NCBI GenBank assembly: GCA_001910725.1
Contig: MJGA01000003.1
Span: 372,001 to 436,000 of the forward strand
DNA length: 64,000 nucleotides
Direction of reading: 5' to 3'
Source of the DNA: Phanerodontia chrysosporium
Taxonomy: Eukaryota; Basidiomycota; Agaricomycetes; Polyporales; Phanerochaetaceae
Positions within the stretch are counted from its first letter, which is position 1. Each line of letters begins with the position of its first letter. A program made the translations under genes and the position numbers. The notes below the pieces were generated by a model. That model saw nothing but the letters and a program-made list of their open reading frames with translations. It was not told where the DNA came from and ran no database searches. Below are positions 15,235 through 64,000 of the stretch, one piece after another.

Positions 15235-18200
15235 ATGTTCACCGTGAAGGCGACGTACCGCGCGGAGACGCGACGGTTTACGTTTCCAGAAGACCATTTT
15301 CCTTCGTATGACAAACTTGTAACTCAGGTGCGTCCGTAAGCTGCGTCAGCGCGCCTCGCCAGAGCTCACGCCCCGTTTTCTGAAGATTTACAAAGTCTTT
15401 CCTATGGCAAATGCATACTTCATGTCAAGGCTTATATTCTCGCCGAATCCTCTCGCTCCCGGCCAGAGCATTCTCATCGGCCTCGAAGCTCATGACGAGG
15501 CGGAGTATGATAAGCACGTCGCGCAGTTCCAGGGGCGGTCCTGGCCTGGTGCTCTTCTCAAGTTCACTGTGTACGACGAGACACCACACAAGAGACCTTC
15601 CGCCTCCACAGCATCTCATAGTCGTCCCCTGAGCATGGTCACCGACATTACTGTTGCCAGTGATACAGTTGTTGAAAGCGACATACCCGAAACCCCTGCT
15701 GTTGCCCCTGTGTACTCAACACCTGTCCACATCGATCATCCGTCCATCGACATTGGAAGGACCTCAATGTTGGCTCCCATCCGAGAGCGTGTGAGAACAC
15801 AAGCGCAACTGAACCCTCAACCTTCCAGCAGGCCGGAGCGCCCAAGGAGTCCCGGTGGGTCTATTCCATCCCCTCAAGTCGCATTCGCTCATCTATTCTC
15901 GTAGACTCGACTGTGTCCTCCTTGGATTACACAGCAAATTCAGTGGCCGAGACGGTCACCCCGCGATTCAGTGCCGGGAGGATTCCGGACGTCTCGGTGT
16001 CCACTCGACTGTCTGCCGTCCTCCGTGACATGCACGCACAGCGCTCAGTATCAGCTTCGGAGGCGGCGGCGTCGTCCTCAGGGCGAATATCTCGTCTTCA
16101 AGACGAACTCGCTGCCATGCACGAGCGCAGCGTCAGACTGAAGGGGGAAACAGCAGCGCTTATGGAGCAGTCGTCGGCATTGAACAGGATACCTTTGAAT
16201 GCGATGCACGCCTCCCCTTCGCCATCAGCAATACCCGTAACTATCACTGATGCAAGTATTGCCACACCTTCACCAGCCTATGCTCCCATCGACGAGGCCT
16301 CGAGCGAACATGCTGGCCCTCACGGGCGCTCGGAGGAGACAATAGAGAGCTGGATATGTGATACTCCTCTACGCTCCGCGCGCTCGCAGGTCAGCCAGTC
16401 AGCGGGATCGAGACCTCGAAGCTCCATTGATTCACCTGTGACATCTCCCGCTCCATTCATCCCCTCTGCTCGGCCTTCCAGCGGCACAGCTGTGCCCGAA
16501 GAGCATCATTCTTTCGAGGAGGCCACAGAGAGAACGTATCGCCTTGGCCTGGATCTCCTTCGCCGATCGTCCAGCTACGCAGCGCCTTATGAAGCTGTGT
16601 TCGAGAACTCTGAAGCCTCGAGCGACGAGGAGACGATTCCACCAATGCCGCCAGCGCATGTGTGCGCCGCTCGTGACGAAACTGAGAGAGGTCGGTTGCT
16701 TGATAGGCTTCGTGTCAGCCGTCCATTGCCTCCGAGGCCGGTCGCGATCCCGGCCCCCACTGGTGTTCAGCCTGTATGCGCTGCTCCCACCTTCCGTCCT
16801 CGAAGCCCTAGCTTGGCGAGCCTCCGTTCGAGGAGCCCAGCGAGTGAGCGCTACTGTCGGAGGAGCCCTAGTGTTGACAGTCTCAATAGATATGGACGTC
16901 GTCGCAGCATCAGTCCCGACAGTTCGGTTGGACGACCTGTTGTGGTCCAGCCGCCTCCTCGACGTTACCGCAGCAGGAGCCCTAGCATAAGTCGTAGCTG
17001 GACCCTCCGCCTCTTCGAGGGATCAACCTTTACCGCCGCAACTGGAGTCGTAGCTCGCCCATTGTACCTCGTCCTTATTCTTCGACATCGACATACTATT
17101 TCTCTCCACCGTCACCACCAATCTTCTCTTCTGCGTATCAGCGACCGCAGTCCATTCCACTCGCAGTCCGTGTAGCATCGCCATCCGTACCCTACTCCGC
17201 AGCACAGCACGCCTGCGGATGGGCCGAGGAGTGCGAAAAGTTGAAGCGGCAAGTGGACGACGTGCAATCTTCATTGGCTGAGCTGCGGCTGGAATTCCAA
17301 GACGCCGTCAGCAAAAAGTATATCGTGCCCGATGAGCAGACGCCGGCTGCGCCTCCCGCAGCCCATGCGGCTGAAGGTCCAGGACGCGTGGCCTCCTCTG
17401 ACGACTCTTTGCCCAACGCAACGATGAGCAACGTACTCCCTCCTGGCTCTGTTCCAATCCGTGTTCATGGCACATTCTCGCCTACAGGAAGCACTTCCAC
17501 GCCTTCATCTGTCACTCACCCGAGGATAATCTGCGACGGTTGTGAGGGCCCCGTGGTCGGTGTCCGCCACAAGTGCTTGGATTGCGATAACTTCGACTTG
17601 TGCTCAGCTTGTCTCAACAACCCACACATGCGGATCATGCATAATTCTCGACATGCCTTCTTCCCCATCGATGTTCCGGACGAGATCACACTCTTCCGGG
17701 ATGTCCAGTACGGTCGCCGTGGCGTGGAGCACCCGGGAATCACTTGCGATGCATGCAATGCAAGCGTCTTCGGCACTAGGCACAAGTGCATAGAATGTGC
17801 AGATTTCGACCTCTGCGAGAAATGTGTATCATCTCCAGCAGTGCGTTCCCGACACGAGGCCAGACACCATTTCTTCCCAATCGAGTACCCTTGGAAACAA
17901 GACACGTATCGCGCAGTCGCCGAGGAACTGAACGTCCGGCCGTTAATCAAGGTGCCGTACACCCTGCTACATGTGACGGCTGCAACCAGACTATCCAAGG
18001 CGTTCGTCACAAGTGCTTGTCTTGCGCGGACTTCGACTTCTGCCCCTCATGCATTGCCAGTCCCGAGAAGCGTGCAGGGCATGATGTCGGCCACGCTTTC
18101 TTCCCAATTGACACGCCGAACGACAAGGATGCTTATTTCGCCGCTCGCGCGAGGGTCGAGGCGCTGCCGTCATCTGGACCGGCCGTCCACGAGAACGTCA

Positions 18201-20743
18201 TCTGCGACAAGTGCGACAACGTCATCGTCGGTGTGCGGCACAAATGTCTCGACTGCCTCAACTTTGACCTGTGCGACCGCTGCGTCGAGCTTGGTGCGAA
18301 GCGCGACCATCATGGAGCGCACCAATTCCTGTCGATCTCGAAGCCAGGCGAGGTCATTGTACACACCGTGCACTACGACGAACCGGCAAGGCAGCCCACT
18401 CCGCCTCGTGTCCCCACGCCGCCTCTGCCACCGGTTGCTCCGCTCGTCGTGCACAGCGCTGTATGCAATCTATGCGACTCCACTATCCGCGGAAGCCGCT
18501 ATGTGAGCCCTTTGTTTCGCCATCTCAGGTATATTCATACTCATTCTCTACAGAAATGCCTCAATTGCCCGAACTTCGACACGTGTCAGGCATGCTTCAG
18601 CATCACACCTGAGCACCACCCTGGTCACGGTTTCGTGCGAGTCAATAATCCCGACGACCTGATGGTGAGCATACTGCGCATACCCTCAAGTGTCCATGGT
18701 TTGATAGCCCTTCACAGCTTCGCAACATCCTCCGCGCGGACGTTGTACATGCCGCCAAGTGCAATGAATGCGGCGAACACATCCATGGCACCCGTTATAA
18801 GGTGAGTTGGTTTTGCCTTGGTCTTGTGATGCTGTGCTGATGGGGTCTGCTCAGTGTCTCCACGCAGAGTGCCCGGATTACGACCTGTGCCAGAATTGCG
18901 AAGCTCTTCCGATACCAGTCCACCCGCAGACCCACCCGCTCGTCAGGCTTCGTATTCCAGAGACCGAGATACCGTGCGTATACGCTCGGCTCAACTGGCA
19001 GCCGTCCGGCAGCACTCACAGACCGGAGCAACGTGCTCCTAGTCCATCCTACGCCCCGATCCCGGCAGAGGTCGCTATGTGCGCGAGGACGCCAACTCCT
19101 TCGTTCACTCCTGTTATTCCGGATCTGCCTCCCGCTCCTTCTGTCGCTCCGCTCATCCCTGCCACCTGGACGCCGCAGGATATCGACTGGAGATGGACGC
19201 CGACCCCGCCCTGCCCGATGTCCATTCCGCGGGTGCTTCAACCTGAAGACCAGACGCCCCTCCTCGATCCCAGCATGTCGGAGCCTCTGGCACGCATCCC
19301 CAGTCCGGTCCTGCACCCTCTGTATGGTCCATCCGTGTCCTACTTCGCCCCGCCTGAGGCGACTGAAGTAGCTAGTTCAGTCGTTGAAGATGTGCATACT
19401 CCTTCTATCCCAGCAGATTCTCCTCGCGTGGCATCGCCTGGCCCTCTCCCTCGCTCCCCTCCAAGGGCTCTCATCGACCTTGAGGATCCGTCCACGACGC
19501 CGACGTCTCGGGTGCAATCACCAGCCGTCCCTTCTTCGCTCGAAGGGCTCTCGACTCCCTCAGACCGCGTGTCCTCCCCCGTGGCGTTGACTGAGCCTGT
19601 TCCTCGGCTCGAGCCTGTCCAAGACCAGGAGTGGCGCGAACTCTGGCCTGAGCTGACGACAATGTTCAGGCACCTGCTTCAGCCTGTGACCCCTCCGGCT
19701 GTCGATGACACTCAGCCCGAAGTAGTGAACATGCCCGGTGCTATGACTGTCGATGACGTCTCCACAGCGCCCATCGTCGAGAAAGAAACGCAGACCACTG
19801 TTGAAGAGCCTAAGCCTGCCGCAGATGAGAGCTCTCTTGCGGAAGAGGCTCTACTGGCTCCCCCAGCACCGATGGCGGAGATGGTCGAACGTTCGCGCAC
19901 CAACCTACTGGAAGCTCTGAGTCGCATTGCACCCGCTCTCGCACCCTCACCCTCTGCAGAAATTCATCACCATGCCACGTTCGTTGCTGACAACAATATC
20001 GCTGACGGTACTGTCTTCCCGCCTGGCGCTGAGTTCGTCAAGTCCTGGATCATGCGCAATGACGGCGAGACGGCCTGGCCCGAGGAGACTACACTCAGGT
20101 ACGTTGCGGGTGACAGAATGTTGTCTCGTGACGGTATTACTGCACGCGCGCCCGTCGGCTGCGTCCTCCCGGGTGCAGAAGCGGAGCTTGTGGGCTGCGA
20201 GATGAAGGTATGTTGCTATCTCTAGTCATACGTGATGGACGAACTCATCATTCGACCACCAGGCTCCGGATGTGCCTGGCAAGTATGTGAGCTACTGGCG
20301 TCTCCACGACGGCAACGAGTTCTTCGGCAGCAGTATCTGGGTTGAGTAAGTGCAATGCTGCTCTTGTCTCTGGGGATGTCCTAATGCGTCTTGCCAGGAT
20401 TGTCGTCGCTGAGCTCGACCACGGTGAGGATCCCAGCAGCGAAGAGTCCCTCGCAGCGTCCTCCGTCATTGTTCCACCTGCGCCCTCGGCCGGAGCCCAG
20501 ACGCACCAGTCTACCGGCATGTCTGTGGCGCCGTCGACCACGGTTCCTTCGAGCCCGCTCTCCGACGATGGCTCCTTCGACTCGTCCCTGTCCCTGATCG
20601 ACGCCCCGTCCTCTCCCTCGATCGCATCCGCGGACGACGAGATATTCCAGGACAGCCGGGAGGCGGCCTCCCCCGTTGACCCAACCCGTGACATGGAGTA
20701 CGTCGTCCTTTACGATACCACCTCGTCTGAAGACTCGGAGTGA
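15235..20743 (+). CDS. NBR1-type selective autophagy receptor, six ZZ domains
   Basis: Large cargo receptor of the NBR1 family. N-terminus is PB1-like (MFTVKATYRAETRRFTFPED, then LVTQIYKVFP after splicing). A long Ser/Pro/Arg linker follows, then six ZZ zinc fingers in a row starting near 17526, 17740, 17965, 18190, 18450 and 18760. Each has CDxC...RHKCLxCxxFDLC-type ligands. The C-terminal four-tryptophan (NBR1) domain runs about 19960-20400 (VFPPGAEFVKSWIMRNDGET, WPEETTLRY, YVSYWRLHDGNEFFG). The end, EYVVLYD in an acidic Ser-rich tail, is a candidate LIR. Standard introns occur at 18510, 18667 and 18805. Three single-base frame breaks (about 15870, 17003, 17940) each close with one extra C. 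No UBA domain is seen. Confidence 0.85.
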
Positions 20744-26596: not shown

Positions 26597-29153
26597 ATGA
26601 CCTGGACGATTCCCCTGCTCTCTGGCCGGTGCGAGAAGGAACCCCGCGACACGGTCGACGGCGTGCACGCGGGGCCGCCTAAGGCGGAGGTCAAGTCCCG
26701 ACCGAAGTCGGTGTCGCTCCCCGTCAAGGAGCTGCTGCGCTACTTCGAGGCCCCTGGCGTGCCCCCGCCGCCGTCCTCGCGCGTCGGCGACCCCAAGCTC
26801 AAGCAGCGCCAGTCGCAGCCGTTCAAGCTCACGGACCTCTGGAAGTACGGCACCTTTGCGGCCTGGAAAGGTGAGCACCCGCCGTGGCCGTGGCCCCTGC
26901 GCGCGCCCATGTACAGGCGCACCGGGCGCCGCACCGCGCCTGGACGTGCAATGCAGAGCGGGACGCTGACGCCCTTGCCTCCGCAGTCAGCGAGCTCGTC
27001 TCCGCCGTGATTGCGCACCAGCTCCGGGGCCCCGCGAGGCCGTCGTGGGGCATCGAGATGACGATCCTGACGTGCATCATGCGTGACGTCTCCCGGCACT
27101 CGCACCTCGCGGACATTGTGAGCATGCCCCCATATGCATACATGCGCACGCGCCCCCGTTGCTGACCGACCGTGCAGGCGATGGTTCGCATGCTGATGAG
27201 CATCAGCGGTCTCGTGCCCGTGCCCTCGGACGCCTTGGTGACGTCCGTCACCTTCCACGTCTCCAGGCGCAGCCTCCGAGGCATCCTCGCCGAGTTTGAT
27301 GCGGCGGAGGACGGCTCGCGTGAGCTCTCTGGAGAGTGGGTGGTGGGAAAGAAGACATGGCAGAGGCTCCAAGCGGAGTGGAAGGCGGCGAAGAAGGACG
27401 CCTCTCGCTCAGGCTCGAGTTCTCCTGGCGAGTCACATACAAAGCGCAAGGAGCGGGTCGTCTTGTATCTGCATGGTGGTACGTCATATCCTATTGTTAT
27501 ATGCGCAACATTTGACGGCGGTTCTCCAGGCGCATATTATTCATCTAGCCCAGCTACCCATAGACTGATCACAATACCGTTGTCGAAGTCCCTAGATGCT
27601 AGGGTGTTTGGTACGTTCGTTCTCTCGAGACGTCTGGCACTTGCATTAACCTACTTGTATGCAGCACTCGACTACCGTCTCGCGCCAGAAACAAGATTCC
27701 CTGGCCCTCTGCACGACGCAGTCTCCGCCTATATGCGTCTCACTGAAGACCTCCAGATCCCCCCTGAGAATATTATTGTCGCAGGCGACAGTGCTGGTGG
27801 AGGTCTATCGCTGGCTCTAATGATGTACTTGCGGGACAATGACTATCCCCTTCCTGGTGGCGGAATCCTCATGTCCCCTTGGGTCGGTGAGCACATTTCC
27901 ATGGATTTTATTTCTCGCGTTCTCACACAGCGCAGACCTTACCATGAGTTGCGACTCGTGGGAGAGTAACGAACCTTACGACATCGTCCCTAAGCCGATA
28001 CCAGGTGACCACCTCAATCCGATCGCTTGTTACCTTGGCGAACACATGGAGAAGTATTTGACACACCCGTATGCCAGCCCGCTGTTCGGCGACTTGAAGG
28101 GGCTCCCACCGCTGTTGATTCAAGCGGGAGAAGCGGAGGTACTGCGCGATGAAATCACGCTTTTGGCTCACAAAGCTTCCCTTGCAGGTGTGCAAGTTCG
28201 GCATGAGTTGTACGAGGATGCGGTACGTGCTCCCGATGCAGCATTTTACATGTCAGTCGGCTCATGTGGCATTCAGGTACACGTATTCCAGACTTTCCCG
28301 TTCCTAGATCAGGCGCGACAAGCCTTCTCTCGGCTCGGTCCTTCGTGCGTGAAGACCTTGCCCCTCTCAATGCCGATGCTCCTCGCAAATTCCAGACAAA
28401 GACAGAAGAGAAGCTCGAGAAAGAGATCAACAACGCGGCCACCCACGTTGTACGGGGCGATGGGTCAGAATGTCAGTCGCCAAGGACGAAGTCGCTCATC
28501 GCAGTGCGAAGCACAGTCGTGCATCCCTACCGCGACCAACGCAGGATGCAGATTCCGAAGAGGGCTTCTCCAGTCAGGACGAGGACCCCAGCTGGGTGTC
28601 GACGTCTGCGTACCCATCTCCGCCCCCCTCTCCGGAGATGGAGGAGGAGAAGCCGGCGTCTTCCCCTACCCGGAAGGAGCTTGTTCGGTCAAACACAGCA
28701 AAGAGCTCATCCTCAATGCGGAGTACAGCCTCAGCGAAGAGTTCGACCTCGACACGCAGTCGCGCGACATCACTTACAAGCAGCTCATTCTGGTCGTCAC
28801 CGCTGTCGTCTCTTTCGTCTCTTGCATCTTCTTCCGAGTCTGCCAGTACCCTGTCAACCAACAACTCCCTGCGGCGTGTGCGGTCTCGCACATACATCAA
28901 GCACGAGCCCGATGCTTCTGCAAGCAGCCACCCGCCGACACGCCAGTACCAGCTCTCGGCATCAACCGAAGCAGTTCCGCGACCGACGATCCGCCGCTCG
29001 TCCTGCAGCCATCCCGACATCACCTCGCTGTGCGCGCAATGGGCCTCGAGTGGGCCCGCGAACCGCACCTCCGTCTACAAACCCGATACCCTCCCGTCGC
29101 GACGCCGCAAGCACGCCAGCTCCGTCTCGTCGACTTCTGCTCCTCGCTCCTAA
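26597..29153 (+). CDS. Alpha/beta hydrolase (hormone-sensitive-lipase-like)
   Basis: Esterase/lipase of the alpha/beta-hydrolase 3 (HSL) group. Start ATG at 26597 (MTWTIPLLSGRCEKEPRD). An N-terminal region of about 240 residues precedes the catalytic domain. The oxyanion motif HGGAYY forms across an intron (GTACGT at 27480 to CTCCAG at 27530). The nucleophile sits in VAGDSAGGGLSLAL near 27785. PLLIQAGEAEVLRDEITLLA contains the expected Asp or Glu, and the catalytic His lies in YEDAVHVFQTFP, formed across an intron at about 28223-28275. The C-terminal 300 or so residues are a Ser-rich, low-complexity tail ending SVSSTSAPRS. Function by family: hydrolysis of acyl or steryl esters. The substrate is unknown. 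Confidence 0.85.
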
Positions 29154-29428
29154 TACCCCTATTTGCTACCTGTCCCGACAAATGAGCAGCGACTCGAGGC
29201 GTCTGCCGTCCCTTCTCTACGGACTTATCATGCGTTCCGTTGCTTGCTGTGCTACCTTCTGTTGTCCTATTGTACGTGTTCTGCTTGAATCCTGAATACT
29301 GTAATCATTGCACTTGAAGGACTCAAGTACTCATAGTGCATGTAGTCATCGCCGTTTCTCTTGTCTAGTCATAACAATTCTCATACACTCCATACATACG
29401 TACAATGTCGTCTGTAACCTTGCAAATA
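29154..29428. other. Convergent 3' flanks
   Basis: Short region between the hydrolase gene and the first carboxylesterase gene. It is AT-richer than its surroundings, and no gene is seen. Confidence 0.4.
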
Positions 29429-40884: not shown

Positions 40885-42245
40885 ATGCGCTTCAGTACCA
40901 CAAGTGCTCTCTGCTTCGGGGTCGGTCTGCTCTCGTGTGTATCGAGCAGCGCGCGCGCGCAACCTACCAACGTCACGCTCGAACGACGACGGACGTTTGT
41001 GCCAATGTCGACGCCGGTTTGAAGGTTAACCTGCTGGGTATTGTGGTCACTGTCGGCGTTGTCGGTAAGCACTGATCTGTTCCATGCAATGTCGAGTCTA
41101 ACGTGACGACAGATGTTTGCCTCTGCATCTCCGGGATCCCCGAATTCCTGAAGGTGGACGCTGTTGCTAAGACCGCCGTGGGCATCGCGGAGTGGCTGCA
41201 GTCACGGCGCAATTGGAGGCCATGGTCAGTAGTCTTACCCGCGTACCAGTCTGCATGTCTAACGACTTATCCAGATCAACAGCGCTGCCGATCACAAAAC
41301 ATGCTCGTATCCCGATAACTGCACCCCCGTCTGTTCCTCTGGGTATGTGCCATCTCATGTACAGAGATGGCGCGGACTAACGGACGCGCAGGTCTCCTTG
41401 CGGCTTCAACTGCAAGAACGGCTTTGTCCCGTACCCGTCCGATCATCCGACAGAGTGCATTTGCCCCGCCCCAAAGAAGGTCTGCAACGGCGTTTGCGGT
41501 TCGTTCCCGTCTTGCCCGTCCGCCGGTCCCAAGAAGCGCGACAGCATCGACCGCAGCGGCTCCTGCGGCGCGGCCTCACAGCGTGCGGCGTGTACGGCTG
41601 GCAAGGCGTCGGGAGCGAGGCGTGGGAGTGCATTGATACCAAGCGCGACCTCGAGAGCTGTAAGTGGTCGCTCTGTACGCACGCCTGTCACGCTGTGACC
41701 GTGACCTTGCGAGCAGTCGAGCAGTTCGCGCTCGCGAGCGCGAGCAGCATCAGCCGTCAGGCGCGGCGCGCCGCGCCGCCCTGCCCCGTGCCGGCCCAGT
41801 CCAGACGGCGTCACGCCTCCGTGACCGTGCGTGACAGTTGTCGTTCGTACGTTCTTCCCGCGCTCGTCGAGCGCACACACGTCACTTTGCTGACTGCATC
41901 TCTTCTTTCTTGGCTCATTTCTCCGGCACGTCAATCTGTCGCTTGTCCTCAACTACTTCGCTTCCGATGGCTACCGGGCACGTCTGCACCCGCAGGCGGC
42001 GGCTGCATGGTCCCCTTCGGGCGCAATATCGCCAGCGGCGTCGACTGCACGGCCATCCCGGGTGTGATGGACGTCACCTGCAACTCTGGCTCTTGCGTGG
42101 TCCACCGCTGCCAGCCTGGTTACATTGTCTCCCTAGACAACTCTTACTGTCTCGACGGCGAGAAGCTCGCCAGGATCCAGGCAGGCGACGTCCCGGCGGC
42201 AGTGTACGGCTGGAGCATGTTCCCCTCCATAAGAAGAGCGATTGA
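40885..42245 (+). CDS. PriA-like secreted Cys-rich protein
   Basis: Secreted cysteine-rich protein resembling the PriA family of mushroom fungi. Start ATG at 40885 with a signal peptide (MRFSTTSALCFGVGLLSCVS). After the signal come DVCANVDAGLKVNLLGIVV and DVCLCISGIPEFLKVDAV, then a Cys-rich middle (SPCGFNCKNGFVPYPSDHPT, VCNGVCGSFPSCPSAGPKKR). The conserved C-terminal block is ACGVYGWQGVGSEAWECIDT, KRDLESC, MVPFGRNIASGVDCTAIPGV, DVTCNSGSCVVHRCQPGY. Likely ends GLEHVPLHKKSD at 42245. Three sites (40991, 41567, 42208) each need one extra base, a G in the last two, to keep this frame. One long intron (about 41660-41990) interrupts DLESC. Function unknown; cell surface or matrix. Confidence 0.7.
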
Positions 42246-42575
42246 GGTGCGGCATCTAGCGGTGCTGTGGCGTAGAGGACTATGGGTGTGCGTGGAGTTA
42301 GACTGGACTTTTACGGACGTTGCATACGTAGAGGCGGACTGTCATAGCTTGGATTGCGGTCTCGTGCGCTGTCTGTAGCTATTCCTCGGACCTCGGTGTG
42401 CAGAGACTTCGATTTGCGCAAGTCTTGGCTCTTTCAGTCGGATAGTGGCACAGAGGTTTGGAAGTTTGAGTATAATTGGCATGACGTTCATTATGGCGTC
42501 AAGATACAGCAGTATAATGGACATTTACATCGCATAGTGCCCAAAGTCGAGTCAGGCACCTCATCAATGATACAA
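42246..42575. other. Convergent 3' flanks
   Basis: About 330 bp, AT-rich, between the PriA-like and XPF/ZIP2-like genes. No gene is seen. Confidence 0.45.
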
Positions 42576-53519: not shown

Positions 53520-54219
53520 TTATGCCGTGCGTAGGATGAGATGGACACCGCTGTCGGTGCTCACGATGTCGCTCATCTCTCCAACCTTGAGTGCAAATGT
53601 GGCGTCTTCAAACGGCTTCTGCATTTGACCCTGCACGTTCACGCTGCGTCAGCTGCGGTAGATGCAACAGGGCATGTTGGGCACGCACCCTGCCGAACGG
53701 GCCGAGGTCACCACCGTTCTTCGCAGACGAGCAGTCCGAATGTACTCTCGCGAGCTCGGCAAACTTCTCAGGCGAGCCGTTGATCTCCTTCTGGTAGCCC
53801 CTCAGGATTTCAATCGCCTCCTCCTTCGTGCGCGTGATGTTCGCCTAGACCAGTCCGCCTCTCATCAGCATCCACCTACTCAAGGACACTCAAGACATGC
53901 AAGACTCACCTCCTTCCAGCTGCTCGGCCGCCGGCTGTCGCGGTGCTTCACGAGCAGGTGGCTCGCGCGCACCTTGGACGGCGAGCTGAGCAGGTGTGCG
54001 CCGGGCAGGCTCTGGACCTGCTCTGGTGTGAGTCCCGCGGGCGGCTCCCATGTCGACTGCTGCGTCTCGGTGTTGAAGAAGTACGGCACGCCGCGCGAAT
54101 TGGACATCCGGATCTCGTAGGGCAGGCTCTGCGGTCACTTGGCGTTAGCGTCGGGGACGGGGATGGCGGGCGGGGAGCGCAGCGAAACGAGCGAGAAGCG
54201 GAGGGGAAGTGCTCACCAT
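53520..54219 (-). CDS. PIN1: Pin1/Ess1 peptidyl-prolyl isomerase
   Basis: Phospho-Ser/Thr-Pro specific parvulin with a WW domain, acting in nuclear control of transcription and mitosis. Exon 2 begins [20 protein letters not shown], followed by the second WW Trp ([10 protein letters not shown]). The parvulin domain runs [20 protein letters not shown], then [77 protein letters not shown]. Catalytic Cys (DCSS), His pair (SHLL, GVHLI) and the basic triad (K, R-R) are all present. Stop at 53520. The most economical start places the ATG (54217-54219) directly against a GTGAGC donor, so exon 1 would contain one codon. About 170 residues, normal for the family. Confidence 0.9.
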
Positions 54220-54998
54220 CGTGGTTGGTGGATAGCTAGAGTATGTCGGGGTGGGTTACAAGCAGGCAAGAGGAAGGCAAGTGGTCGTCGTCGGGGTGAA
54301 CTGTGTGAGACGGTCGCCGGGTCGCTTTGCGCGCCTGCCTCAGCCTTCGATCGCGTCAGCGCTAGGCGCCTGTTGTGCCTTACCTGCGACTCCCACCCCG
54401 ACGTGACTCTAGACTCCATAGCTCCAGGATCCGTGGCATCGACATCCATACATAGTCTGGTGTCAGTGCGAAAGCGAAGAAATAAGCTTTGAGGACAAAA
54501 TCTTGTTTCATGCGTAGAAGTGAACGCCCAACTCACGCCCTATCCTAAGTGAGTGGACCGCGAGGACTTGGAGCATACAGCAGACAGTGCTAATTTATCA
54601 GGCTAGCACTAGTTAGAGTGCCGTATATTAGACTATGCAGCCTGCTCACACGAGTTGGAGTTTGTGCATACCCACGACCCAGGCCAGGCCAGGTACCGCA
54701 TTTGCCTTGCGTGCAGGGCTTCAGCTGCAAGTACCCGCGAATCCGCTACGGCTGGGTGCGATTTCCGAACGTGAGCAGGACCGAACCGGAGTATTGCAGG
54801 CGCCTAGATATAGGTAAGTCCTCCGCTCGGAGTTCCAGCTATGCGAGACTTCTGTCTGCCGAGTGCACAATGTTCATCGATCACCAGATTTCTGGTGAAG
54901 AGCCCGCCGAAATCCTTGCCAAGAGGCGCCACGGGACGCTTTTGCAAACGCAAAACTATGCGCCCTTGTCAATTGGTATGATGCATGGACGCCCCGCA
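54220..54998. other. Intergenic, PIN1 to acidic gene array
   Basis: About 780 bp. Open frames exist (for example 54618-55178), but the longest runs through the promoter and first exon of the next gene and has no domain. I see no gene. Confidence 0.45.
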
Positions 54999-55006
54999 TA
55001 TAAATA
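54999..55006 (+). promoter_or_regulatory. TATA box of acidic family gene 1
   Basis: TATAAATA, a near-perfect core element, sits 63 bp upstream of the ATG at 55062. Confidence 0.65.
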
Positions 55007-55061
55007 CAGAGGGAACGCCGGGAAACGACATTCACACCCGCTACGTACCATCTGCACCGCC

Positions 55062-55404
55062 ATGTCTGAAGCTACCGAGCCACAGAACGCTGCCGCGCAG
55101 AGCGCACCCAAGGATCCCTCTCCCGCCGAGAGCTTCCAGTGCGTCACTTCCGCAGAATCACCTGTACGCATGATTTGACACAGACATCTAGAGCCGAGAA
55201 AGACGTAGTAGCGCCGACTCCCGAAGATGACGATGACGACGACGATTTCGACGTCGAGGCGGCTCTCGAAGAGGCGTGGGTGCACCTTCATATGTCCGCA
55301 ATCTGCTCTAGACTGACAGCTGTCCCAGTGGTCTTGAACCCCGCGGTCCCAAGACTACTACTACTGCCAGCGCTCCTGGGGGGAAGAAAAGGCCTGTGGG
55401 CTGA
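55062..55404 (+). CDS. Acidic array family, copy 1 (unknown function)
   Basis: Not recognised. Three exons. Exon 1 reads MSEATEPQNAAAQSAPKDPS and ends at SFQ (CA|, phase 2). After a 56-nt intron ending CATCTAG, exon 2 reads AEKDVVAPTP then EDDDDDDDFDVEAALEEA. A second phase-2 intron (GTGGGT near 55277 to TCCCAG near 55326) leads to exon 3, GLEPRGPKTTTTASAPGG, ending KKRPVG at 55404. About 78 residues, predicted disordered except for the hydrophobic patch at the end of exon 2. No signal peptide or membrane segment. Strong TATA box. Closest relative is copy 2, which has introns at the same positions and phases. Confidence 0.6.
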
Positions 55405-55956
55405 GGTATGTCATTAGAACGATCAACACAGCGAGATTAGGGTTGAACATGATACTCCTGGCAGACTCATGCAGAGCTGCGGTGACCAATAACTTGTCGT
55501 GGCGTACAAACTACCAGTCATTTTTGTTTCAATGCATCACATATCCCATCCCGTCTCATTGCACCAGCAGGCGTTTGGACAGCACTTCAGACCGTCTCTC
55601 AGCCACTCCGTAGTCGTCGGCGCTGACATACGCTAACACGAATCTCGTGGCTCTCCAGAGACAGAACCTAACTGCTAATCGCATCCCCATCCGGACAGCC
55701 CTGGGTTCTCTTGCCTGATTCCACCACTCCAATGCCCCTGCTGACTCGTCCCCTTGTAAATCGCTGTTCAATGGAGCCGGTGGCGTGCGCCTGTCGGGAA
55801 CACCTTTCGGCGGTAGAAGACGTGGACCCTTACTTCGTGGGAAGAGTGAACGCAATGTGAGTCCTGCACATTGATGCAGAAAAGCGCATCATCGACGGCC
55901 TTTAAAGCAGCGTTTCTTCAGCTTCGGCTGCTGCCCTGCAGCGCGTATCCCACAAC
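55405..55956. other. Spacer between acidic copies 1 and 2
   Basis: About 550 bp. No gene is called. A minus-strand frame (55556-55855) contains acidic residues and an EPRA string but lacks the family's intron signature. TTTAAAG at 55902-55908 may be the core promoter of copy 2. Confidence 0.35.
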
Positions 55957-56387
55957 ATGAGCCAGGTGACAGAGCACGAGCCGGCGACCTCGCGGTCGAC
56001 TGAGGCCGGTCTGGGCTTCTTGCCCGCTGATGCTGAATCCCAGTGAGTTTCGCTCCACTGTCGCACCAATGACGCCGAGTGTAGCATGGTCACGCCCATT
56101 CTCAGGGACCCGACTGCGTCCAACCCCGCTGAAGATGACGATGACATCGACATAGACATAGACATAGACATCGAAGAAGTGCTACTGCGGGCGTGAGTGC
56201 CAGAGCTCTGTTTCATTCAAATCGTCTGAAACTCTTCATATCCAGGGGTGTCGAACCTCGTGGGATAAAGGCCGCCACCACAGCGACTGACAACAGGATG
56301 GGTTCAAAGGAAACCAAGGGCACTACCACGACGACTGACAAGAAGGCTGTGAAGCGGCCCGTGGGTGCTTCGAAACCCACGCGCTGA
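55957..56387 (+). CDS. Acidic array family, copy 2 (unknown function)
   Basis: Not recognised. Same plan as copy 1. Exon 1 is MSQVTEHEPATSRSTEAGLG ... AESQ (CA|, phase 2). Exon 2 begins DPTASNPAEDDDD, continues through an Ile-Asp repeat and ends EEVLLRA. The phase-2 intron GTGAGT ... ATCCAG follows. Exon 3 begins GVEPRGIKAATTATD and ends KRPVGASKPTR at 56387. The KRPVG near the end matches copy 1. About 104 residues, highly polar. The Ile-Asp run is written by a GACATA hexanucleotide repeat. No membrane or signal segment. Confidence 0.6.
56143..56172 (+). repeat. GACATA/GACATC hexanucleotide repeat
   Basis: Five in-frame units (GACATC then GACATA x3 then GACATC) encode the Asp-Ile repeat of acidic copy 2. 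Length change by whole units would keep the frame. Confidence 0.85.
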
Positions 56388-56651
56388 GCCGCGAGGCAAC
56401 AGGTCTGTCGTCCCTTTTAGACGTATTCGTTCGTACGCTAATGACATTAGCTAGCATTTCAAGGCGTGATTCTCCGCTGCTCAGGATGAATGTACATTAC
56501 AAGAGCCTGCTTATGCAAATAGGAAGATAAGAGTAACAACGCGCTACCTGGCCGCCTTGTGACCTTAGTCATACATGCGTCTCAAACAGACACAAGTCCC
56601 TTCTATGTTACAGACTCACGATCATGCTGGATAGAGTGAAGTCTAGAGGCA
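56388..56651. other. Convergent flank, copies 2 and 3
   Basis: Short AT-rich 3' region. No gene is seen. Confidence 0.4.
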
Positions 56652-57500
56652 TCAAACTGAACGAGGCTCTGGTTTCTTACTACCTTCGCCTTCAGACGCA
56701 CTAGGTTTTGAGGCGGCGGTGCTGCTTGGCGGCGCAGTGTTGGCCTTCTTCGCTTTCTTTTGCGGTCTCTTGTCGTCCTTCAGGTTCGTGTCTTCCCGTG
56801 CGGTCAATACCGGTGCTCATCGCAAGACTGTAGACTCACCACTGGACGAACGCTTCGCGCCTGGTCCTGTGGGCCGCGACACTCCCTTACCACGCTTGAC
56901 TACCGTAGCCCGGTCTGCCGGAGCGCGCGATTCGAGTCCCCTGACGTAACAAGGGTCAGTTGCTCGCAGCCGAAGGGGAAAAAATAAAGAGCGTACATCT
57001 CGTCGAGAAATTCGTCGACATCGAGGCCGTTGATCGTGTCATCTTCGCCTTCGTCCTCACCTTCCAACGTATTCACTTCGTTGTCGACAACTTGAATTTC
57101 CACCTTGGTGACATGCACGGTGCATTCACCATGCTCGGGGGAGTCTTCATCCTCCGGTTTCACGCTTCCTTCCTTGCGTTCGTCCTTGTTGCTCTCACCG
57201 TCCACACCAGCCGCGTCGATGACCCTCTGGTCCTCCTTTTCAGCAGGAAGTTCGGTTTCTTGATGCAAAGCAGCACGTGGCATGCTGAAGGAAAGTCAGT
57301 CTGTGTTTTATGCCTCGGGATATATGCACTGACTGCTCTGCATCTATCGAAGTCGTCACCGACGGTGCGAGCACATCACTTTCTTCAGTCACAAGTGATG
57401 TGCTTGCCTCCGTCGCATCTGGTCCCGCCAATGATGCCTTTTCAGGATGATTGATGGCGTCGACATCGGTCTTGCTCACTTCAGAGCCGTACATGGTCAT
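56652..57500 (-). CDS. Acidic array family, copy 3 (unknown function)
   Basis: Not recognised. Start ATG at 57500 (MTMYGSEVSKTDVDAINHPE). Intron 1 is phase 2 at CA| (GTCAGT ... CTTCAG, about 57282-57332). The long exon 2 is acidic (VKPEDEDSPEHGECTVHVTK, GEDEGEDDTING) and ends LDVDEFLDEM. A phase-2 intron (GTACGC ... GTCAG) leads to GLESRAPADRATVVKRGKG. A further intron (GTGAGT ... CTGAAG) joins DDKRPQKKAKKANTAPPSS, and the stop is at 56652. About 230 residues, the most expanded member. A minus-strand ATATAAG at 57575-57581 lies about 75 bp upstream of the start. Confidence 0.6.
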
Positions 57501-57963
57501 GGTAGAGAACGAACAAGTCGGATAACGGGCTACCGGGTGGGAGGAGATAGGGCTGCGGCTCTGCACGTCCTCCGCTTATATCCCAGTCACACAACCGCCT
57601 CGAGAGATCGACTGATGCATCAGCCCGCCGACTGCGTACTATGTAGTCGATTCTCAGAGTGTCCCTTTCGCGATGAACCTCACACAATCAAAAGCGGGCA
57701 TCGGGTGCCTGATATCATTTATTGGATGGACGTGAGAAATGACGACGGACTTAAAGACAAAGACGATCGAACCTTACTTGAGCTCGCTGTACCCATTCTC
57801 AGTACGCATAGCATCGATTCCAGGGACATACATTCAGCAGTAACTATGAGCAGGAACGGTATAATGGACTGCGTAAAGCGAAATAGCCTGACTGTATATG
57901 GTTCTGCAATGGCCCAAGAGACGGTATGGCATGCAGAGATTTTCAACGAATGGCTGCCATGCG
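57501..57963. promoter_or_regulatory. Spacer between copies 3 and 4
   Basis: About 460 bp. Holds the copy 3 promoter (minus-strand TATAAG near 57580) and the copy 4 3' flank. No gene is seen. Confidence 0.4.
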
Positions 57964-58825
57964 TCAGCGCGACGACCTAAGCCTGCGTATGACTTTCTTC
58001 AGGCGCTCTATCCACTTCTTGCGAACGGGTTTGACTGAGATCGGGGTAATCAGTACCGGAATGGACACCATGTCAGACCGAATGAGCGTACTGGAAGGAG
58101 TAGTTGGCGCCTTTGCATCCACCTGTGTCTTTGCATCAGTCTTCGCTGCGCCTGCTGGAGTCACCAGCGTTCCCTTAGGCGTCGTTGACGCAGTTCCGGC
58201 AGGGATTGTAGCAGTGGCAGTCTGCGAGACGGCGAGAGCGTTGGTCCTAGGTGGGGTAATGGTCATCCGGACAGAAGCGGTCGATAGCGCTGCAGACTTA
58301 GTCGATATCCTAGCTGGAGATCTAGAAGTCATTGGTGTACCACTAATCGACGACTGGAGCCTACGATTGACGGTTGCGTTTGTAGGGGTCTCCACCGAAG
58401 TCGGGTCGTTACCTCGTCCGCGTAGTTCGAGACCACTGCACAGGGAAACTTAGCAGGGTCACTCAGTACTAATATCTCAGAAAGCACGTACACAGAAGTG
58501 AAAATACCATCTAAGTCTAAGTCCGTGTCGTCGCAGTCTTCATCCTGATCCTCGTGGCGGTATCCATCCTTGCTGCAACCATTGTCCTCTATGGCGGCAC
58601 GGTTGTCTTCCTCAGGCTTGATATCGAGAGGGCTATATGAAGATAGCCATACCGTCTCAGTTGCGCTAAATTTTTAGCGTGGAGGAGCACGTACTGATGG
58701 TCTACGGGGAAGGTGGTAGCTGTAGCGCCGTTTGCACGGGAAGGTGTATGGACGTCATCGTAAACTGTAAGATCCACTGCTGCGGTGATTACGCCCCTCT
58801 CGAGAGTGTGATTGCCTGTAGACAT
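57964..58825 (-). CDS. Acidic array family, copy 4 (unknown function)
   Basis: Not recognised. Start ATG at 58825 (MSTGNHTLERGVITAAVDLT). Exon 1 ends at FPVDH (CA|, phase 2) before GTACGTGC. Exon 2 is acidic (HEDQDEDCDDTDLDLDGIFT) and ends SV (GT|, phase 2). After an intron ending GTGCAG, exon 3 opens GLELRGRGNDPTSVE, passes through a Thr/Ser/Ala/Pro-rich region, and ends in a basic aromatic tail, RKKWIERLKKVIRRLRSS. Stop at 57964. About 230 residues. A minus-strand TATAAG at about 58900 lies about 75 bp upstream. The tail could form a basic amphipathic helix for nucleic acid or membrane contact, which is inference. Confidence 0.6.
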
Positions 58826-58906
58826 GGTTCTGGTCGTTCTGTTGCAGTCTGTCTTGAAAATGAGCTTGATCTGTTGGGCGTTCAGCGAAGGCTTTGAACT
58901 TATATG

Positions 58907-59836
58907 GCCTACCGCACACTTCCTAGGAAGCAAGGGGAAGCGCCACGGCAGTGCGCGTAACATTCACGCGTGCTCAATTGCTGCAAGCTGTGAAGAACCG
59001 GTGCATTGTGTTAATTTCTGACGAATCCAACACAAGAGTCGGCATAGCCAAACTCACCACAAACCCGACGCACAGCCAGCTAAGTGCCCTGCCTTCAAAG
59101 TACTGTCAACTCGACTCGGACCGGGGCCCATCAGTGCATCTTGGTGGATAGACATGTCCCGAGAAGCAACGGTCATCCAGAAGCTTCACAGCAAACGACA
59201 CAGGCCCCGGGCGCCCGTCTGCACTTGGAAGGTCTGAACATTAGCAGTCCTGCGAATACGCACTACGGAGTACGGAGACTGGTCGCAACAGTTGTGGAAG
59301 CCAGCTGCATGGAGCAGTGACTTCGTATAGCCTCACGAGGCGCGCGATTCAGCAGTCCCGGTCTTTCTGCAAAATGATCGTAGAGGCTTTAGACGGCCCG
59401 GTCGCGCGATGCTGACAATACGTCAGCGCTTTCCAGGTGAGATCCATGGGGCAGTGAGATACGTAGGCTAAGATGAGGACTCTGATGCACGTCGTGCAAT
59501 CAGCGAACGGCTCTAAATGTGTTAATACTTCATGCAAAGGGTGTCAGACGTACCCACGTTTGTTCAGTAGCTTGCTAGATACACTGCAAAGTATCCTTCT
59601 CGATCTCATGGTAATCCGACCACACAGGTAACGGAGTTCCAGAGAATCCGCCACAAAAACAGCCACAGACACCGACGAGTGAGGAGAGTGAGGTGACGTC
59701 GAACGACTGGAACAGAGATGTACGGGATCATCTTATTCCATGACAATTCGCGCGGCAGCCCTAGACCACGCATTTTTGGTAAGCTGGTTGGTGGAAGATG
59801 ACATCACCGACATCTTGGTTGAAGCTGCGCATACCG
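58907..59836. other. Spacer between copies 4 and 5
   Basis: About 930 bp. Small open frames only, none with the family signature or a known domain. It could hide a decayed copy, but I cannot show one. Confidence 0.35.
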
Positions 59837-60350
59837 TCACCATCGAGCTACAATTCGTAACTCACTGAACGTACCAGTCATGGGAACCTGCGGGGGCGGG
59901 GAACGGGTGACGCTTACGACCGCCGCAACAGTCACAACCGCAGTCGGAAATGTGAGTCTGTCTCGTGTTTCAAGACCACTGCGTGTGCGAGATGCTGCGT
60001 CAGACCTGAATGCACATTGGACGATATGTTGCAACCTACATCGATTCAAGAAACGTCTCGAGCTCCATTTCGGTCTCTTTCCTTCGGCGACGCCGCCGTC
60101 GTCGCCGCTGCGCATCCCAAGGTCTCCGCCTTCCTCGCCGGCAATGAAAGCATCGGGAGCAATAGAGGGCCTACAAAGTATCAATGACAGTGAAGGATTG
60201 CCTGAAAGCGGCCTACTCGTGGGCAGACGTAAATGAAGCAGCACTGAACGTGGGGCTAGCGGGCGCCGTCTCGACGACAGGAGATGTCAATGCGTCCGAG
60301 TCGCCGACGGTGGATCTAGTTGTGCCCGAGTTATGACCACCTTCCGCCAT
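59837..60350 (-). CDS. Acidic array family, copy 5 (unknown function)
   Basis: Not recognised. Start ATG at 60350 (MAEGGHNSGTTRSTVGDSDA). Exon 1 ends SAH-, phase 2, before GTAGGC. Exon 2 is acidic and Gly-rich (FIAGEEGGDLGMRSGDDGGV) and ends MELETFLES. Reaching that end from the upstream frame needs one extra C at 60072, the same type of loss seen across the window. After the phase-2 intron GTAGGT ... ACGCAG, exon 3 opens GLETRDRLTFPTAVVTVAA. The 3' end is uncertain: either the frame runs to 59837 or a further intron starts near 59885. The identification rests on the shared exon plan. Confidence 0.45.
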
Positions 60351-60904
60351 GAGCCGTCTATCTTGGTAGGCAGGTATGTACAGCCTCGAGTGCCTGCGGA
60401 TGTGCCGATGACAGGAGACTTTGTACTGTGACCTTCCGCGCTCGTCAGGTGCAACCACAGATAACCTGCGATGTCGACCAAGGGTCCTGGCAAAGTGGTG
60501 AGATATCACATTGCTAGGACATGGAAACCAATCCGCGCAAAGACACGTACAATGCCTACTGCGCACGGGAGAAGGAACGGAACGGGTCCGTGTTCATATT
60601 TCCAGGCAGTCAATCATTCGCGAGCATGGACCCTAAGTGGAAGCGGTTATCATTGGTGATGTATGAAGTTGTATCACCACTCACTGATATATGCCCACGA
60701 ATAGCTTGCTTGAATGGATGGCAGAGTGCTTTACAAGGGACAAGCAGAGGATTGTCGCCTCTGCCGATATTAAGCCCTCACAGCTTAGGGCGGTGGCCTC
60801 TATTGCTCTGCTGATAATGCATGCCAGCACGTACATCTGCTCGAGAATGATACGGTCAAGCTAATAGGAAGACGGAGGATCTGGTGATCTGAAATGAAAC
60901 AGGT
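60351..60904. other. Spacer between copies 5 and 6
   Basis: About 550 bp with the promoter of copy 5 and the 3' flank of copy 6. No gene is seen. Confidence 0.35.
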
Positions 60905-61365
60905 CTAACGTCTATTCCCGCGTATACGAGCCCACAACCGTCGCCAAAACGAATCCTTTCTTTTTGTCGCCTCGCCTACAGGTGAGGCGCCATGGCCAAC
61001 ACCAACGGTAGCTTCCTTGCGCTCGCCGCCATGATGGTCGGAGGGCAAGGTAGGCGTCGTCTTCGGTTTTTTCTTGGTTGCGGTAGGCTTGTCCGCTGGG
61101 GCACGCGTCTCAAGATCTCTACCAGCATGTCAGACGGCCCCATGGACTGCTTCAGGACGCACCATACATAGTTCGTAGGACTGAGGCCATGTCAACGCCC
61201 TGAGGCTCGATATCTATGTGTCCAGCTTCATGACTATGCCTCGAGGCATCAGGTGTGTCCGCCCTTGAGCGATAGTCAATCGAGGCTGATTTGTTAGGAT
61301 GAGCTCGCGACGCACCTGTGCTCGGCAGAGACAGAAGGTCTACCATCGCCGTTGTCGATGATCAT
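60905..61365 (-). CDS. Acidic array family, copy 6 (unknown function)
   Basis: Not recognised. Probable start ATG at 61365 (MIIDNGDGRPSVSAEH). Exon 1 is followed by a short phase-2 intron (GTGCGT ... CTCAAG, about 44 nt). Exon 2 is RADTPDASRHSHEAGHIDIE and ends VDMASVLRT. A phase-2 intron (GTATGG ... TGGTAG) leads to DLETRAPADKPTATKKKPK. The LE[ST]RAPAD stretch closely matches copy 3. The C-terminus is basic and aromatic (KRKDSFWRRLWARIRGNRR), like copy 4, with the stop at 60905. About 137 residues. TATAGAG occurs on the minus strand about 90 bp upstream. Less acidic in exon 2 than its relatives. Confidence 0.55.
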
Positions 61366-63650
61366 GAGGCCGTATACTGAGAAAGCAAGACTTCACCGGT
61401 GGAGAATGGTGCGGGATGGTACGGAGGCCCCAACTCCGATGGCTGTAGTGAATGTCTCTATATGACGGTATTGCCGCACTGGATATCGTCCGACAAGACT
61501 ATGGGGCTGTGCGACAATGGACTTGTTCCGGTTGCCTTCGAGAAGCGGTTAATGAAGGCCATATGTCATCCCGGCCCTCGGGTCTCGCTCACTATGCTTG
61601 TTATGTCTCTATGTCACCGTCAGTATAGATCAATAGGGAAGTATGAAGCTGTTCTAACATACCGAATAGACGAGCTGCGCGGTGTGAAGCGAGGTGGGTC
61701 GCGGCGCCTCCAAACACGGAAAGGCACAGCCATCTCGACAAGTGGAAGCCATACAGAGACCGCTACGCAGCTCCGTTGAACAGAAGCGTAAACCCTGTCT
61801 GCGACCAGGGACTGGGGGAGATTATTTTCCGGGGCTGCCTGCAGAAGGAGGCTATTCATTTGAAGGTGTCCATCGCGCGAGACAATGCAGTGTCGTAGCG
61901 CCTTTCTTGTGGAAGACACATGGGTTCCATGAACTACTGGCGGCAAAGTGAATTGCGCATATGGTCGACGGAACCAATAGCGCTGCTGAGGAACATCCCC
62001 GTCCTCGTATGCTCGCGCGATGACGGGAAGCATTGGACGGGATGCTGCGCAGAGTCTACCATCGTGAACGATGTGGCTCAGGACCCTAGCCAAAAGATGA
62101 TGGACATATGTCAATCAGGATGAGAAGCTGACAGACTACTCACAGGACAGCCCAACACTAGTTCAAGATTCCATCCGTGAGTAGTTGTTTCGTGACCAGT
62201 CCAGAGGCGGTGGATAGCACGGAGCGCTTGGATCTAATGCATCCGAAAGGCGGTAGAACCCTTGGGAACGGTGGAGAATCCTTCCAAGCAGTAGTCAGGC
62301 TTTCGTGCGAGAAAGACTCGAGAATCTGGCACGAGCTTTCTCAGAAATCATCATGATACTTCTTGCAAGATCTGCTACTCACTCGTCATTACCTTGTTCA
62401 ACATCTGGCATGGTGCACAGGCATTGAGCCCTTTCGTAGGTAATCGCCAGGTATGGTCTCTTCGGCTGCTGCAAGCAGAGGTGATGGCGGATGGAGAAGA
62501 TGCTCGGCCTTGGCGTCTATCTGCGCCCGCGCCGTGATGCGACTCGCCGCGGACGCGACGCGCCTCAACTCCGACCTTCTCATTCACCACGGCAGAGGTT
62601 GGCCAGTGATCGAGGCAACCAAGCTCTTGCATTATTGGAATCTGGAAGGTTGGCCGGGGTATGTACATGTATTCTCTTTGTATTCTCAAGCTCGCGGCGA
62701 CCGCTGCCGTATAATGTAGCTAGGAAATTTGAATTCAGGAAGTGGCTTTGTTGAGCCTGTGACCCGACGTTCCCGGCGAGCGTCCCGAAAGGAGAAGCAG
62801 CATCGTGGAGGAGTCTTGTATGTGCTAACTTAGCACACCGCAAGCCGCGGAATGCGGCCCGCCCTATGCTTCCACGCTGCGTAAGCGGCGTGGTTAGCAG
62901 AGGCGAAGGCCCACAACCCATCCAGTCGTACGGCGCCTGCAGGATGGTTAGGCGAGAAGAACACGAGGTGCCACAGCCATTGAAGCGGCCGTTGTGTGCG
63001 GTTGGACACCGATATGCCGTGGTACCATTTCGAACCTCGGGAGCGACGCTGGACCCCGGCCTGCATTGAAGCTCAACGCTAGGGCATCGATAACCTCGTG
63101 GATGGAATGTGTGTGTGAACCTTGTAAATGCCGGGCTAAGAAAGCACAGCAGTGCCCGATTATGATGCTGTGGCGGCGGCAAACCTCAGATACACGTGAG
63201 CATGGCTTGCGGTACTCGACCTCGAGAACGGCGAGAACAGAGTGCTATTCAGTCTATAGATCTTATACCAGGCCCGTTACATGCACTTGCGAACTATCGA
63301 GTGGCAATAGTGAATATATATGCACAACGTTTACCAAATTGGCCAGCAGGTCGCACACTATTACTACAAGTCTTCTGAGCAGATCGACTGTTTACTGGTA
63401 GACAAAAATCCGTATGGAACTCTGCACAGGCGTTATGTGGCAGTGCACTTAATTGATGCGTGAGGACTCATGTATATTTACGTTCACATGTCAGGACCTT
63501 TGACGCGAGTACTCGCTGTCGGCGCGGCAGCTTTACACGAAAAGGCTTCGAGGGGGGCTGAAGCAGCTTGCGCTGTGGCACCTTCTTGAGCTGCAGGTCA
63601 TTTATTAGTCGTGCGCACTTTTCATGACTGTATGCACGTACGTGAATCAT
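61366..63650. other. 2.3-kb spacer between copies 6 and 7
   Basis: No gene is called. The longest frame (61620-62114, minus) has no domain, acidic block or family intron signature. A minus-strand GVEAR string near 62535 is noted but rejected. Confidence 0.35.
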
Positions 63651-64000
63651 TCACCGGCGGTGGTGGTGAGCGTGGCTTGGCGGCCCATTTTTCTGTTTCA
63701 CCTGACTTGGGGCGTTAAGTCTTCCACGGACCTCGAAACCCCTAGACCACACCACCCATCGGAATTCTGCTAGTTAGTATCTCTATTGAAGCGACGTACA
63801 TCGAGTAGAGGAGAGGGCCCAACCCATTGTCATTGCTTTCGTCGTCACCGGACTCATTGCCCTCAGAACCATCTTCGCCGGCTCTGACATGCATATGAAC
63901 ATCGGCAACGGTGGCCTCAAGAGGCGGCAAGGAACTATGCGAAGTTAGTAGCAATCAGAGGCCAGCTTTGTGAAGGACATACGCAGAGCCTGCAGGGGAT
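63651..64000 (-). CDS. Acidic array family, copy 7 (partial at window edge)
   Basis: Not recognised; exon 1 runs off the right edge. Exon 2 starts after a phase-2 intron (GTATGTCC ... GCATAG, about 63930-63982, with a textbook CTACTAAC branch site). It reads LPPLEATVADVHMHVRAGED, then GSEGNESGDDESNDN, and ends LGPLLYS. The phase-2 intron GTACGTC ... GTCTAG follows. Exon 3 opens GFEVRGRLNAPSQVKQK and ends HAHHHRR at 63651. Same layout as copies 1-6. The array may continue beyond the window. Confidence 0.5.

Follow-up and report, generated by a model that had tools for sequence, protein, structure and literature searches.

A locus-bound family of small, deeply diverged genes with a shared intron plan and a gapless core in Phanerodontia chrysosporium

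The window analysed here is a 64-kb stretch of the Phanerodontia chrysosporium genome (bases 372001-436000 of the 2.5-Mb contig C69, in an assembly of 39.0 Mb and 145 contigs), and its right end holds the beginning of an array of small genes that share an exon plan and a short core divided by an intron. Both strands of the window were scanned for an acidic exon end followed by a phase-2 GT..YAG intron of 45-109 nt and then an exon opening with G/D-[LVF]-E-x-R. This gave 9 matches at 7 distinct sites (+55276, +56193, -56996, -58491, -60039, -61167 and -63799), and the same scan found no match on either strand of the remaining 55 kb. Across 30 simulated windows from an order-2 Markov model, the mean was 0.03 matches per window and the maximum 1; the seven-copy array is not due to chance. 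A first-pass annotation had described seven genes in 9 kb, and all seven sites were retrieved exactly, but the array proved to be larger. It comprises at least 11 copies across ~16.7 kb, from window position 55062 to L001:7722, where L001 is the 10 kb that follows the window; the four extra copies, c8-c11, lie within 8 kb of the window's right edge. The first pass missed this continuation, along with the tail classes described below. A remote member with the same exon plan lies on the same contig, 1.7 Mb away. Statements about modelled copies refer to 11 genes: six in the window (c5, which could not be modelled in one frame, is excluded), four beyond it and the remote copy. The individual copies are as follows.

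c1, plus strand, exons 55062-55138, 55192-55275 and 55329-55404: 78 residues; core DFDVEAALEEA/GLEPRG, tail KKRPVG; TATAAA at -63
c2, plus strand, exons 55957-56042, 56106-56192 and 56246-56387: 104 residues; core DIEEVLLRA/GVEPRG, tail KRPVGASKPTR
c3, minus strand, 56652..57500, exons as modelled 57500-57334, 57284-56997 and 56940-56817: core DVDEFLDEM/GLESRA; a putative third intron of phase 1 (56839-56792) and a following exon ending at 56652 were placed by eye and are unconfirmed
c4, minus strand, exons 58825-58695, 58632-58492 and 58435-57964: 247 residues; core DLDGIFTSV/GLELRG
c5, minus strand, 59680..60346 (approximate extent): core ELETFLES/GLETRD at 60039, matched by the all-copy profile at E 0.0022
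c6, minus strand, exons 61365-61316, 61263-61168 and 61118-60905: 119 residues; core VDMASVLRTI/DLETRA
c7, minus strand, exons 64122-63983 (mostly in L001), 63934-63800 and 63741-63651 as read here; the public form has a phase-1 intron and then an exon, placed by eye, ending at about 63484
c8, minus strand, core-intron site at L001:5557, C-terminal region L001:5210-5302: ends CPCCTS
c9, minus strand, core-intron site at L001:4291: copy beyond the window
c10, minus strand, core-intron site at L001:2346: copy beyond the window
c11, plus strand, L001:7241-7722: four introns, with an identical public protein
Remote copy, minus strand, L011:1257-1976 (C69:2137 kb): core GVLELLRAA/GLEPRG; long, charged, coil-like tail

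The fixed exon plan proposed in the first pass is borne out, with phase 2 at both intron 1 and the core intron in 11/11 modelled copies. The phase of the core intron was part of the search and that of intron 1 was not, although the first-intron acceptors in c1, c6 and c10 were picked among alternatives to keep the frame, so that phase 2 is partly built in; the choices for c1 and c6 are confirmed by public proteins. Intron lengths in the modelled copies are 48-65 nt, plus one of 87 nt. An additional phase-1 intron is present in c8, c9, c10 and c11 and, as judged by eye, in c3 and in the public form of c7; the c8 frame is open even without it. Six of the 11 modelled copies carry a TATA[AT] element between -115 and -55, which corrects the earlier count of four; among random windows from the region, 4.4% do (p=2.6e-6). 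Because the comparison set consisted of random windows and not promoters, this result indicates TATA boxes and says nothing of how unusual they are among genes. Two further copies, c9 and c11, have TATA[AT] at about -50 by eye.

Around the core intron, 34 residues align without gaps across the modelled copies, the only exception being one shifted row from Phanerochaete sordida. The Arg is invariant, the Glu nearly so, and spaced hydrophobic residues precede the Gly or Asp. Leave-one-out profiles, a check suggested in the first pass, recovered c1, c2, c3, c4, c6, c8, c11 and the remote copy at E 1.9e-5 or better (for example, c2 at 1.9e-5, c3 at 9.3e-6 and c4 at 1e-7), so that 8/11 copies fell at E<1e-4, at rank 1-2 of 3,046. 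The other three were weakly recovered, at E 0.0015-0.034 (c7, E 0.0015, rank 7; c10, E 0.026, rank 10; c9, E 0.034, rank 11). Among the matches listed (the first two per copy), every peptide that outranked a left-out copy was a junction of c11, itself a member. A profile of all copies, which contains the copies themselves, was compared with 18,950 junction peptides from 134 kb, and every one of the best 45 listed matches fell inside the array. A relaxed exon-3 pattern applied to the whole genome gave 53 matches, all of which were examined (introns of 44-79 nt), against 43 for a reversed-pattern control, and the motif test was passed only by nine array copies and the remote copy. This pattern is blind to c5, whose motif ends in D, and to c9, whose acceptor is AAG, and odd copies could therefore escape it. 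A sequence present twice (L054/L058) passed a loose filter with HGVVH/ELEERG; its exon 3 starts with Glu, and it was dropped by judgement.

Because the modelled copies have intron phases, intron positions and the gapless core in common, there is good support for local duplication and for deep divergence thereafter with the core retained, much as the first pass had supposed. A search of window 54000-64000 for direct or inverted repeats of at least 24 nt gave none, and L001 gave only the repeats of 12-bp period described below, with the window and L001 searched separately and not against each other. The family is real, locus-bound and old enough to have lost similarity at the DNA level.

The motif pattern also picked up a permease gene, and with it came the idea that the family descends from, or mimics, the N-terminal part of a purine-cytosine permease of the NCS1 type. 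This gene lies 28 kb to the right of the array (C69:471704; L004 from 5562, plus strand) and carries FASGVEARG, with a PF02133 match downstream. However, the motif there lies within one exon and is not interrupted by a phase-2 intron, the gene's 71-residue segment has no Pfam match, and the excess of 53 over 43 control matches is such that chance occurrences are expected. The N-terminal stretches that could be read in the C24 and C58 permease genes do not contain the motif, and the small proteins, whether as models or as public sequences, have no PF02133 match in Pfam. In the C54 permease gene, which has IEPTTEEQRTDTR at an exon start, the motif site would fall in an exon upstream of the stretch that was read. 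We consider a permease origin very improbable.

Public protein sequences agree with five of the spliced models. P0003 is identical to c1 (78/78 residues) and P0006 to c11 (85/85, across four introns), whereas P0001 matches c6 at 116/119 residues, with three substitutions. P0002 (160 residues) is identical to c7 for its first 112 residues and then shows a frame difference, and P0005 and the remote copy are identical in the final 194 of 203 residues but differ before that. The public proteins run without a break across the exon junctions of all five matched models; at the first c6 junction, only a nearby substitution separates the model from P0001. Compared by eye, the remote copy and the start of P0005 look as if ~65 nt without GT-AG borders were missing. 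The longest contigs behind the five proteins of the 'lgn' source measure 1,029-3,024 bases, and this source probably consists of assembled transcripts, the alternative being an intron-aware gene caller run on DNA. Since continuous public proteins match five spliced models, the family is most likely expressed.

A sixth public protein, P0004 (PsYK624_055500), is the c1 orthologue of Phanerochaete sordida and allows a comparison between species. The two proteins are 51% identical overall, with FDVEAALEEAGLEPRGPK unchanged and the RPVG end retained. Because the c1 core is unchanged while its flanks diverge, this comparison, a single orthologue pair at the protein level, suggests that the core is under purifying selection. 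In c5 the acidic exon and the core helix do not share a frame, so that this copy is probably broken, and c7 in this haplotype leaves the frame of P0002 after residue 112, a difference that could be an assembly error.

These observations bear on the suggestion, made in the first pass, of an arms race, in which the copies would be fast-evolving conflict or nonself-recognition genes. An array restricted to one locus, deep divergence and a broken c5 would all fit such genes, as would the frame difference in c7 and the three residues at which c6 differs from its public protein. However, the core is frozen in the only comparison between species, the c1 and c11 models agree with public proteins at every residue, and reading of the sequences brought out no obvious secretion signal. 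The arms-race suggestion thus finds no support here, and we regard a role in conflict as improbable.

The family appears to be undescribed so far, as far as tested. No Pfam family scored over cut-off in ten spliced models and six public proteins, the latter covering c7, and the best sub-threshold match, GAGA_bind (E 0.016), fell on the remote copy's charged tail. The six public proteins likewise matched no NCBIfam family. Among solved structures the sole match was to a designed protein (E 0.18), which we took as chance, and the entries listed by the literature searches included nothing describing this array. The earlier remark that no known family is recognizable therefore holds for Pfam, NCBIfam and solved structures. 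We also considered that the proteins might be ubiquitin or SUMO binders resembling the ubiquitin-interacting motif (UIM), with an acidic stretch and a helix of the hydrophobic-x-x-Ala type, given that c1 and its P. sordida orthologue come near the UIM consensus, in which the helix has an invariant Ala and Ser. However, Pfam returned no UIM match at an E limit of 10 (its filters remove most matches above about 0.1), and the position of the UIM alanine is variable in the core alignment, with other residues in most of the remaining copies, leaving this a very unlikely explanation.

The charge pattern of the proteins raises a further possibility. Exon 2 is acidic in most copies, with a net charge of -13, -11, -24, -13, -9 and -17 in c1, c2, c3, c4, c7 and c9, respectively, and the net charge of exon 3 (in c11, the exon after the core intron) is positive in 11/11 modelled copies. 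The proteins could thus be acidic transcriptional co-regulators, in which the D/E-rich exon 2 would bind a general coactivator and the basic tails would contact DNA, RNA or chromatin. The six copies just named have the expected order of an acidic exon 2 and then a positively charged exon 3, and hydrophobic residues are embedded in acid, as in DDDFDVEAAL of c1, which presumably resembles an activation domain. Against this, no DNA-binding domain scores over the Pfam cut-off, the core is kept even in c6, c8 and c10, in which exon 2 is hardly acidic (net -3, -2 and -5), and the Trp/Arg and CPC ends described next are unfit for a nuclear role. On balance, we think co-regulation rather unlikely.

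Whereas the core is held constant, the C-terminal tails fall into distinct classes. The endings of the three plus-strand copies are RPVG, RPVGASKPTR and RPVSK. On the minus strand, c4, c6, c8 and c10 end in KKWIERLKKVIRRLRSSR, DSFWRRLWARIRGNRR, KISWWRGVWNSLCPCCTS and NSCWRWLRNLLCPCLKIRK, respectively, which are Trp/Arg amphipathic and in two cases contain CPC; the c4 end is cationic amphipathic. Neither class takes in c3, c7, c9 or the remote copy. In c4, c6, c8 and c10, amphipathicity over 18 residues reaches its maximum for the protein at the C-terminal tail, although relative to shuffles of the same composition this amphipathicity is weak, and in two of the four it is suggestive only. The last four residues of c8, CCTS, formally have the form of a CaaX box, which would allow prenylation. 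A search with the c8 tail for a second source of Trp-rich tails in the genome returned only c8 itself. AlphaFold2 (AF2) places helices in c6 only at the core (42-47) and in the Trp/Arg tail (99-116), with a mean predicted local distance difference test (pLDDT) score of 56.5, and in c11 only at the core (53-59), with a mean pLDDT of 60.9. Gly followed by a hydrophobic residue is a usual stop after a helix. With low confidence, then, the models depict the proteins as a short core helix in an otherwise disordered chain. Reading of the models revealed no obvious membrane span or signal sequence, no predictor having been run.

We tentatively favor a model in which these genes encode a family of disordered intracellular adaptors, whose shared helix docks on one partner and whose tail sets the place. 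The acidic stretch and short amphipathic helix, closed by Gly-hydrophobic-Glu-x-Arg, would fold upon docking to a single shared partner, and the variable tail would determine the site at which this occurs. A Lys/Thr/Pro tail with RPV[GS] might mark a soluble or nuclear type, and an amphipathic end of Trp and Arg, whether or not it has the CPC cysteines, a membrane type that is possibly lipidated, as the CCTS of c8 would permit. Duplication would then retain the docking helix and swap the address. The family would have arisen by old local duplication at one locus, resulting in 11 copies, at least one of them broken, plus the remote copy. What was computed is the intron plan, the gapless core, the five continuous public sequences, the lack of any Pfam family over cut-off and the tail classes; the mechanism is what we infer from them.

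Several points weigh against this adaptor model. The docking partner is hypothetical, and the cores of c7, c9 and c10 fit the profile poorly, which means that the partner need not be common to all copies. The AF2 helix predictions are of low confidence throughout, and the fractions of shuffles that reach the tail moment are 0.009, 0.11, 0.07 and 0.04 for c4, c6, c8 and c10. On the side of expression, the database does not state what the 'lgn' source means, so that its equation with transcripts is our own, and the longest contig behind P0003, at 3,024 bases, exceeds what a c1 mRNA would need. Six of the 11 modelled copies (c2, c3, c4, c8, c9 and c10) had no public match in the protein searches, in which the alignment-based step scored only the candidates with the most shared words.

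A bolder and doubtful proposal is that the locus serves as a generator of address tags, in which a fixed helical docking peptide is combined with exchanged tails (RPV[GS], Trp/Arg and lipidatable CPC/CCTS), each paralogue steering the one partner to a different place. If the adaptor model is correct, the array is a compact natural experiment in which duplication keeps a binding peptide and changes localization. More generally, annotation easily loses families of this kind, whose proteins are small, disordered and hardly alike and whose core an intron interrupts; in this case the family could be identified from intron phase and a short core. The mycology of white rot would gain an unknown but tractable family, one member of which, c1, is conserved.

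The array is bounded on the right by a gene of the NF-Y/DPB3 histone-fold type (L001:9638 into L002, plus strand; PF00808, E 1.6e-11), and repeats with a 12-bp period lie outside genes at L001:8259-8423, between c11 and the histone-fold gene. To the left are a CPL1-like domain (PF21671; window 41263-42375, plus strand), an alpha/beta hydrolase fragment (window 27824-29182, plus strand) and a ZZ-type zinc finger protein (window 16998-18503, plus strand); the other 8 open reading frames scanned in window 34-54 kb gave no Pfam match at E 0.001.

Comparison with known systems places the family near three types of small protein. Like the lipopeptide pheromone precursors of basidiomycetes, it consists of small multicopy genes at one locus, and c8 alone has an end of CaaX form (CCTS). 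However, we rejected this identity: 10/11 modelled C-termini lack the CaaX form, and the family has an acidic core and introns. In a works-like sense only, the proteins are analogous to acidic adaptors of the DSS1/Sem1 type, with fewer than 100 residues in c1 and c11, a disordered acidic body and a single amphipathic helix near the end. They differ in showing no Pfam match to the DSS1/Sem1 family, and neither the GLExRG end nor a basic or Trp/Arg tail is known from DSS1/Sem1. The family also resembles the lineage-specific tandem arrays of small fungal paralogues in occupying a single locus with many divergent copies, one of them broken, and in having TATA promoters and an apparently restricted distribution. 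Unlike those arrays, the family described here carries no obvious secretion signal, keeps a gapless helix core and exchanges its classes of tail.

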